A DNA stretch of 64,000 nucleotides from Roseovarius halotolerans (GTDB taxonomy: Bacteria > Pseudomonadota > Alphaproteobacteria > Rhodobacterales > Rhodobacteraceae): the NCBI RefSeq assembly GCF_900172255.1, contig NZ_FWFU01000001.1, positions 186,001 through 250,000 of the forward strand, given 5' to 3'. Position numbers and translations under genes: made by a program. Of the stretch, positions 57,679-59,461 are shown in pieces. Below the pieces are notes generated by a model. The model did no database searches and was not told where the DNA came from. It was given only the letters and a program-made list of their open reading frames with translations. The stretch's first letter is position 1. Every line of letters starts with the position of its first letter.

Positions 57679-57818
57679 ATGACCTTGGTGTATCAAGCCA
57701 GCCGCGACAGGGCAAGCGGTCGACGCGGCGGCGGGGAAAATCGCGACAATTGAAGGCGTTGAGGCCGTGTTAACGGGTTCTTCCGCATGCTGGGCGCGGT
57801 TGGAGAGTGGAGGCCGTG

Positions 57819-58418
57819 ATGCATTGGCTTGTCAACCGCTCGGTCGAGCGGTTCGTACGCGATACATATGGGCGCGAGACGTGGGTGGAGGTTGCGCGCC
57901 TGCTTGACCCCGATATCGATGCGTTCGACGCGATGCAGGGCTTTGACGCCAGCGTGACGCATCATCTGATGGCAGTGGTGGCGAAAATCCTTGAACGCCC
58001 CGCGCGCGCCATCGAGGAGGATATAGGCACCTACCTTGTGACCCATCCCCATAATGCACCAGTGCGCCGCCTGCTGCGCTTTGGCGGCGACAGTTTCGAG
58101 GACTTCCTGCATTCGCTGGAGGATCTGCCTGACCGGGCGCATCTGGCGCTGCCGGGGCTCGATCTGCCGCGTCTTGAGGTGATTGCCTGCCGGGGGAGCG
58201 TGTTCACCCTCGCGGTGACGCCGACCGGCCCCGATTCGGTGTGTTTCGGCAGCGCCTTCATGGGGCTGCTGCGGGCGATGGCGGATGATTACGGTGCGCT
58301 GGTCACGCTGGAGCACAAGGGACAGGACGGGGCGCGCGAGCTGATCGAGGTCGAGCTGCTGGCGCAGGACCACGGCGAGGCGCGCGCATTTGCGCTTGGC
58401 GCAGGGGCGGGGCAATGA
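57819..58418 (+). CDS. H-NOX (HNOB) domain protein with degenerate heme site
   Basis: A 199-aa protein, the size of a stand-alone H-NOX. The N-terminal HWLVNRSVERFVRDTYG is typical. At the position of the proximal heme His, the usual LDNLH motif reads LEDLP (Pro104), with a nearby His108; the YxSxR propionate-binding motif reads FxSxF (143-147). It may not bind heme in the canonical way. GGAGG is 5 nt before the ATG at 57819. It overlaps the cyclase gene by 4 bp. Confidence 0.85.
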   Translation: MHWLVNRSVERFVRDTYGRETWVEVARLLDPDIDAFDAMQGFDASVTHHLMAVVAKILERPARAIEEDIGTYLVTHPHNAPVRRLLRFGGDSFEDFLHSLEDLPDRAHLALPGLDLPRLEVIACRGSVFTLAVTPTGPDSVCFGSAFMGLLRAMADDYGALVTLEHKGQDGARELIEVELLAQDHGEARAFALGAGAGQ

Positions 58419-59461
58419 GCGCGATTTTCGACACGCTTTGCCCGATGCATGCCCGCCTTGGCGCCCATGGCCATATCGTCCATGCCGGGCCGACATTGCA
58501 GCGCATCCACCCGGAGGGCGACCTGCGCGGGCGCCGGTTTCTGGAGCTGTTCGAGATGCGTCGCCCGGTGACCGGACAATCGATGGAGGCATTGCGCGCG
58601 GCCGCGGGCCTGCCCCTGCGGCTGCGGCTGCGCCAGCCTCCGGGACTGGCGCTCAAGGGGGTCCTGGTGGCGCTCGGGCCGGATTCGGCGGTTGGCCCTG
58701 AGGGCGGGGCATTGGTGAACCTGTCCTTCGCGATCGCGTTGCCGGACGCGGTGCGCGCCTTCGATCTGACTCGTGCCGATTTCGCGGCGACCGATCTGGC
58801 GGTCGAGATGCTCTATCTGATCGAGGCCAAGACGATGACGATGGAGGCCCTGCACAAGGCGAACCTTCGCTTGCAGGGGGGCAAGACCGAGGCCGAGGCA
58901 AAGGCATTCACCGATACGCTGACGGGGCTGGGCAACCGGCGCCTGCTGGACCGCGTCACCAGCCGAATGATCGCGGGCGAGCGCGATTTCGCGCTGATGA
59001 GCCTCGATCTCGATTTCTTCAAGGCAGTCAATGACAGTCTGGGCCATGCAGCGGGCGATCATGTGCTGCGCGCCGCCGCTCAGGCGATGCTGGAGGAGAC
59101 CCGCAGCGACGACACCGTGCTGCGCTTTGGCGGGGATGAATTCATGCTGATCCTGGCCGGGATGACACGCCGTGCCGAGGTTGATGAATTCGCACGCCGC
59201 CTGATCGCCCGGCTGGAGGTGCCGATCGTCTATGAAGGCGAGACCTGCCGCATCTCGGCCAGTATCGGCGCGGTGTTGAGCAGGGATAGCGACGCGCCCG
59301 ATATAGACGCCATGATGGCCAAGGCCGACGCGGCGCTGTACGCCGCAAAGCAAAGCGGTCGTGGGCGTCATGTGCTTTATGATCCGAAGACTCCGCCGGT
59401 CATGCAAGCCAAAGCCACGCAGCGGCGCGCCGATACCAGCCCGGCCGGCCCGCCGCCTTGA
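58415..59461 (+). CDS. Diguanylate cyclase with HNOBA-like input domain
   Basis: A 348-aa protein. Residues 1 to about 150 resemble the H-NOX-associated (HNOBA) PAS-like domain; a helical linker follows (EMLYLIEAKTMTMEAL). The C-terminal GGDEF domain has RFGGDEF, DLDFFKAVND and an I-site RSDD, so it should synthesise c-di-GMP and be feedback-inhibited. It is translationally coupled to the H-NOX gene; the pair resembles known H-NOX/cyclase signalling units. Confidence 0.88.
   Translation: MSAIFDTLCPMHARLGAHGHIVHAGPTLQRIHPEGDLRGRRFLELFEMRRPVTGQSMEALRAAAGLPLRLRLRQPPGLALKGVLVALGPDSAVGPEGGALVNLSFAIALPDAVRAFDLTRADFAATDLAVEMLYLIEAKTMTMEALHKANLRLQGGKTEAEAKAFTDTLTGLGNRRLLDRVTSRMIAGERDFALMSLDLDFFKAVNDSLGHAAGDHVLRAAAQAMLEETRSDDTVLRFGGDEFMLILAGMTRRAEVDEFARRLIARLEVPIVYEGETCRISASIGAVLSRDSDAPDIDAMMAKADAALYAAKQSGRGRHVLYDPKTPPVMQAKATQRRADTSPAGPPP

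Follow-up and report, generated by a model that had tools for sequence, protein, structure and literature searches.

In H-NOX proteins, NO normally displaces the proximal histidine that ligates the heme, and the histidine rotates out together with helix F (PMC7108781). What, then, does an H-NOX protein without this histidine sense, and can it still regulate the diguanylate cyclase (DGC) encoded next to it? The question is raised by a gene pair of the marine bacterium Roseovarius halotolerans that lies in the window analyzed here, a stretch of 64,000 nucleotides (contig NZ_FWFU01000001.1, positions 186,001 to 250,000). Loss of the histidine in "group 5" H-NOX proteins is already in print: Kumar and Spiro described a Paracoccus denitrificans H-NOX without it in 2017 (PMC5588039), and Lee-Lopez and Yukl reported in 2022 that fewer than 10% of group 5 members have it and left the mechanism open (PMC8738867). 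A search of the open-access literature by title and start of abstract found no paper announcing an experiment on how group 5 proteins sense a signal. As far as this search goes, the tallies with one gene per genus, the age of the proline, the observations on residue 135, the caveat about D. shibae, and the promoter box described below are new. The coding features of the locus are as follows.

57819 to 58418, plus strand: H-NOX (HNOB) protein of 199 amino acids without the proximal histidine (Pfam HNOB, 60.1 bits)
58128 to 58130, plus strand: codon of Pro104 (CCT), in the place of the proximal heme-ligand histidine (aligns with Nostoc H-NOX His105 without a gap)
58140 to 58142, plus strand: His108, earlier proposed as a substitute ligand and not conserved (orthologue counts)
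58215 to 58229, plus strand: V133-T-P-T-G137, with which the lost YxSxR heme-propionate motif aligns (alignment)
58245 to 58259, plus strand: F143-G-S-A-F147, start of the next helix, earlier taken for YxSxR (alignment, AF2 model)
58415 to 59461, plus strand: diguanylate cyclase with a PAS-like N-domain, a long helix at about residues 128 to 167, and a GGDEF domain with an RxxD I-site motif (Pfam, AF2 model, PDB matches)

An H-NOX fold that has lost both heme motifs

The H-NOX gene noted in an earlier reading of the DNA letters (hereafter the sequence-only reading) was borne out, with its start and stop. The product scores well over the Pfam HNOB gathering score of 25.5 and is the sole HNOB match in the R. 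halotolerans genome; an NCBIfam search with it gave no match. The nearest named relative that we found belongs to a Roseovarius strain and is 78% identical. The AF2 model (pLDDT 87, pTM 0.84) has the H-NOX fold, with a Z of 18.8 and an rmsd of 2.5 Å across 175 residues against 2o09, and its best structural matches are the beta1 subunit of soluble guanylate cyclase (sGC) and Nostoc H-NOX (Z 18 to 19.5). NO-activated human sGC (Z 19.1 to 19.5) and the unactivated enzyme (Z 18.1 to 18.5) are near ties; this fold search does not tell NO-bound from unliganded sGC and shows no NO-like state of the protein. Helix F (residues 93 to 110) stays unbroken through Pro104 in the model.

Neither hallmark of a classical heme-based H-NOX gas sensor is present. 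The proximal position is occupied by Pro104, the last residue of LEDLP (residues 100 to 104), and the alignment with Nostoc H-NOX has one single-residue gap over residues 1 to 121 and none around the histidine, confirming that the sequence-only reading had not misplaced the histidine when it reported LEDLP instead. That reading was also right that YxSxR is lost, although not about where, as the FxSxF it cited is FGSAF, where the next helix begins, whereas the motif aligns with VTPTG at 133 to 137. Its further suggestion of His108 as a heme ligand in a new geometry found no support: histidine occurs at 108 in 3 of 127 relatives with proline at the proximal position (Pro-types), in none of 14 with histidine there (His-types), and in 1 of 38 others. 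His108 is thus no class feature, and we rejected it as a substitute ligand. His2, a tyrosine in Nostoc H-NOX, is found in 114/127 Pro-types, 12/14 His-types, and 34/38 others. A redox zinc-cysteine site was likewise rejected, because the DGC-linked class has no conserved set of cysteines; position 133 is the only one with cysteine in more than 30% of class rows (53%).

The partner is a predicted diguanylate cyclase

The two genes overlap by 4 bp (ATGA, 58415 to 58418), and a start codon giving this overlap was found in 67 of 97 family operons by a script that preferred such a start. The GGDEF domain of the partner scores 136.8 bits with its GGDEF motif intact, predicting a diguanylate cyclase, and RSDD, as read from the sequence, sits five residues ahead of GGDEF. 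According to the AF2 model and PDB matches, its N-terminal part looks PAS-like and leads into the long helix. The sequence-only reading had called this an HNOBA-GGDEF gene; the overlap and the GGDEF part stand, but the HNOBA label is weaker, as the match (residues 2 to 61, 60 of 216 positions) reaches 20.3 bits, below the Pfam cut-off of 23.4.

The proximal histidine is missing from most of the class

The substitution was followed across orthologues in two sets of Rhodobacteraceae genomes. For the first, 140 genomes with a completeness of 90% or more were drawn evenly; 100 of them matched, and 97 genes, one per genus, were usable once G063 (a 68-bit match of the other type) and the fragments G089 and G120 had been left out. 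The second took the first 80 further genomes with an HNOB match in list order from G215 on, without G247, G254, G348, and G352, which had already been used; 75 matched and, after the fragment G279 was dropped, 75 genes from 74 genomes remained. The tallies include G095, G235, and G255 despite their in-frame stops. For L238, the piece from G095, and for rows with gaps, residue 104 was taken from the alignment alone.

Histidine is retained in 12 of 172 DGC-linked genes (8/97 and 4/75) and proline is found in 122, so the loss is class-wide (160/172). The first set comprises 70 Pro, 8 His, 4 Gln, 3 Asn, and 3 Ala, with Thr, Arg, and Gly twice each and Asp, Lys, and Glu once each; the second comprises 52 Pro, 6 Gln, 5 Arg, 4 His, 4 Ser, 2 Asn, 1 Glu, and 1 Ala. 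In the same genus, 29 of the best 30 of 36 listed matches, our own row included, have proline and one has alanine. A full YxSxR is present in none of 179 class rows, His-types included, and single letters of it remain in 35. As for other H-NOX proteins of the family, 26 of 27 have the histidine (by eye) and all 27 have YxSxR; these are the best Pfam scorers and therefore not a random sample. A draw of 387 genomes across the taxonomic class gave 10 matches, and the four from other families are all classical, with histidine and YxSxR. Some nine-tenths of the DGC-linked H-NOX genes covered here encode proteins that are unable to bind heme in the established manner.

Several individual cases were observed along the way. 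L059, an H-NOX of the family outside the DGC-linked class, has glutamine for the proximal histidine (ELQAEV) and retains YxSxR, a second, separate loss. Genome G305 has two DGC-linked copies (L247 and L276), and large plasmids of Paracoccus and Phaeobacter also bear class members. L325, on a Pseudorhodobacter turbinis plasmid, combines a proximal arginine with a CtrA-like box at -60.

The histidine-less gene is maintained

Compared with the 78%-identical relative (NG86), dN/dS is about 0.24 for the H-NOX gene and about 0.18 for the DGC gene. Across 103 rows, 34 of 199 H-NOX positions are at least 95% identical (37 listed minus three gap columns), and RRLLRF (83 to 88), P117, and ADDYG (155 to 159) are near-invariant in Pro-types and His-types alike. 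The codons of Pro104 are CCY in 29 of 70 cases against 211 of 489 for the other prolines of the same genes (p 0.80); being at the equilibrium of their own genes, they mark the proline as old and not as the product of a stream of recent His-to-Pro changes. Three class members, L317 (G255), L318 (G235), and L238 (G095), have an in-frame stop inside the matched stretch. Judged from these alignments, the H-NOX gene is under selection and not decaying.

Residue 135, regain of histidine, and denitrification

We also asked what accompanies the histidine where it is present. Residue 135, which aligns with the serine of YxSxR, was found as Trp or His in 11/14 His-types, 7/127 Pro-types, and 11/38 others, and was picked after scans rather than beforehand. 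In the single-residue scan (1952 tests), His at 135 ranked fourth (4/10 vs 2/94); when the two commonest residues were pooled, 135 ranked first of 591 columns (8/10 His-types vs 4/75 Pro-types). It was again enriched in the second set (3/4 His-types vs 3/52, p 0.003), but tree-aware tests did not confirm the link (2.3 vs 0.1 of 4 pairs; second set, 0.9 vs 0.5 of 3). The top of the single-residue scan was Tyr at DGC residue 185 (window positions 58967 to 58969), which occurs with the H-NOX histidine in 6/10 His-types vs 2/94 others.

A two-rate model favored regain of histidine over pure loss by 3.8 log units, with a class ancestor lacking histidine at 0.96, and a pure-loss history would need 14 losses. 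Since the tree is poorly supported at most of its inner branches (24 of 102 starred), we do not take this as proof. The proximal residue may be an evolutionary toggle, with one ancestral loss giving heme-free DGC regulators and some lineages later regaining the histidine together with Trp or His at 135 instead of the lost YxSxR serine, thereby re-arming a dead gas sensor; we hold this idea as tentative and rather doubtful.

A link between His-types and denitrification was rejected: nirK or nirS is present in 9/15 His-type and 26/65 other genomes (Fisher p 0.25). The 80 genomes were those of 15 His-types, among them 5 of the 6 from named genomes, and, going down the list, the first 65 without the histidine, nirK being counted over its curated cut-off and nirS at E below 1e-90. 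The sixth, L110, was left out; it shares its motif region with L159, and the genome of L159 was included. R. halotolerans itself encodes a copper nitrite reductase, nirK (G000:C3:100760-101731, 528 bits). NO is therefore probably made in a cell whose only H-NOX has no heme ligand, and a search for NosP as an alternative NO sensor found no FIST match in this genome.

A recurrent CtrA-like box precedes the operon

One further feature lies upstream of the gene pair.

57759 to 57773, plus strand: CtrA-like box TTGA-N7-TTAA, 60 bp ahead of the H-NOX start (degenerate pattern TTRR-N7-TTAA)

The degenerate pattern, which was written after looking at these promoters, occurs in 35/96, 42/79, and 17/30 orthologue promoters of three sets that overlap in species, against 0.3, 0.4, and 0.1 in mononucleotide shuffles. 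A spacer of 6 gave 6, 2, and 0 cases, and spacers of 5, 8, and 9 gave none. The box lies mostly at about -52 to -66 and is present in 4/8 His-type and 24/69 Pro-type promoters of the family; by this pattern it is absent from 43 to 64% of promoters, that of P. denitrificans included. With both orientations counted, the whole window holds two such sites, at 57759 and 41668. The strict form TTAA-N7-TTAA was found in only 1/96, 1/79, and 0/30 promoters and is absent from the hnox promoter of the window.

The degenerate box shares its geometry with the CtrA motif TTAAC-N5-GTTAAC given in PMC7232146, and mutants in the CtrA phosphorelay of P. inhibens and D. shibae have been reported to downregulate one dgc and its hnox (PMC11974857), suggesting that the pair probably receives its input via CtrA. 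A promoter and terminator scan found no sigma-70-type promoter, and its two terminator-like matches, both on the minus strand, are no more than shuffles give. The hnox promoter lies just past a TPP riboswitch (RF00059, 57579 to 57684, minus strand, 72.4 bits) that fronts divergent NMT1/THI5-like, TENA/THI-4 family, and ABC transporter genes.

DISCUSSION

Both heme motifs are lost from the window protein, its gene is under selection and linked to a DGC gene, and the promoter box recurs. As the histidine is lost here and in most relatives of the family, the protein probably controls its DGC without heme-based NO sensing, and in the cell it is most likely free of heme and unresponsive to NO. Our leading explanation, in which we place about even confidence, is that this probable group 5 member is retained by selection to regulate its DGC without heme or NO sensing, its input coming through expression. 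The H-NOX protein would act as a partner subunit of the overlapping DGC, docked on the PAS-like N-domain. There is no Fe-His bond for NO to break because the proximal histidine is absent; lacking that bond on helix F, the domain may rest in a conformation like the NO-bound, His-released one, which would lower DGC activity constitutively, and the signal would enter through expression of the hnox-dgc pair, probably via CtrA. Several observations speak against this explanation: the conserved His2 might ligate heme, nirK is present, the P. denitrificans biofilm responds to NO, three class genes carry in-frame stops, and the box is missing from 43 to 64% of promoters.

The sequence-only reading had also offered that the domain senses something else, which is compatible with our data, although the absence of gas sensing through an Fe-His bond, in a heme-free regulator, is the simpler reading. 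The empty pocket could hold another ligand, such as a lipid, a porphyrin, or a small metabolite, making the protein a sensor of it that acts on the DGC. Conservation of the fold and core fits this. So does the excess of proline, by far the commonest replacement, which looks more like a new use of the site than like random change. Among the weaker structural matches is a TRAPP subunit that binds palmitate covalently (Z 8.9), though that score may reflect a common arrangement only. We regard a pocket with another ligand as possible and give it a minor share of our confidence. That heme is still bound through another residue, with NO sensed in a new geometry, seems unlikely to us: a candidate, the conserved His2, is present in most Pro-types but is equally common in His-types and others, and so did not evolve as a substitute for the proximal histidine, while His108 is not conserved and YxSxR has been lost as well.

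The disappearance of both heme motifs and the stops in three class genes would also suit a relic of a former sensor, in an operon retained for the DGC only. Against this stand the dN/dS of 0.24, the 34 near-invariant positions, and the reported phenotype of a P. denitrificans hnoX mutant, whose orthologue has proline (PMC5588039), and we consider a relic very improbable. A one-base sequencing error (CAT read as CCT) would take a single transversion, but it is refuted by proline in 29 of the best 30 of 36 listed rows from the genus, and also in the relative at 78% identity, and its probability is negligible. If the leading explanation holds and these proteins are heme-free regulators, c-di-GMP control of motility and biofilm in these bacteria would depend on the expression of hnox and dgc rather than on a gas acting via H-NOX. 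The natural His/Pro pairs make the mode of signalling directly testable.

Comparison with known systems

The window protein resembles group 5 as described in PMC8738867 and PMC5588039, with no proximal histidine, mostly proline in its place, no conserved cysteines, and an adjacent or overlapping GGDEF gene, here the one at 58415 to 59461. Our tally of 12/172 agrees with the published share of less than 10%. H-NOX of P. denitrificans strain HAMBI_2443 has proline at the proximal place (ELPGR), consistent with Kumar and Spiro, and is 37.6% identical to the window protein; nothing sets the latter apart as a kind from HnoX/DgcA, and P. denitrificans lacks the CtrA-like box as defined by the degenerate pattern. 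In that species, the hnoX mutant was reported to be partly biofilm-deficient and a dgcAB mutant to overproduce biofilm; biofilm responds to NO partly without H-NOX, and the authors propose NO-driven inhibition of DgcA (PMC5588039). As the hnoX mutant of this proline-bearing species shows a phenotype, a histidine-less class member has a function in the cell.

The H-NOX of D. shibae has been reported to inhibit Dgc1 when NO-bound (PMC8846402, PMC7232146), and D. shibae has served as the model when related genes, such as those of R. capsulatus, were discussed as NO sensors (PMC7232146). The two systems share their class, an MHG start, a GGDEF partner with ATGA overlap, and the CtrA-like box (at -53 in D. 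shibae), but the D. shibae protein (L225) has the proximal histidine (DDLH) whereas the window protein has proline. As one of the few that keep the histidine, D. shibae is a poor model for the class.

Vibrio cholerae H-NOX has been described as a heme-free redox sensor that works via a zinc-cysteine site, but it and its relatives retain the proximal histidine, unlike the window protein (PMC7108781). Classical bacterial H-NOX proteins such as Nostoc Alr2278 and Shewanella oneidensis SO2144 share the fold and align nearly without gaps, but they have both the proximal histidine and YxSxR, and the window protein has neither. The H-NOX domain of the sGC alpha subunit is heme-free and a structural partner within a cyclase, similar to the role proposed here; sGC alpha is eukaryotic and fused to a guanylate cyclase, whereas the R. 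halotolerans H-NOX is a separate protein beside a diguanylate cyclase.
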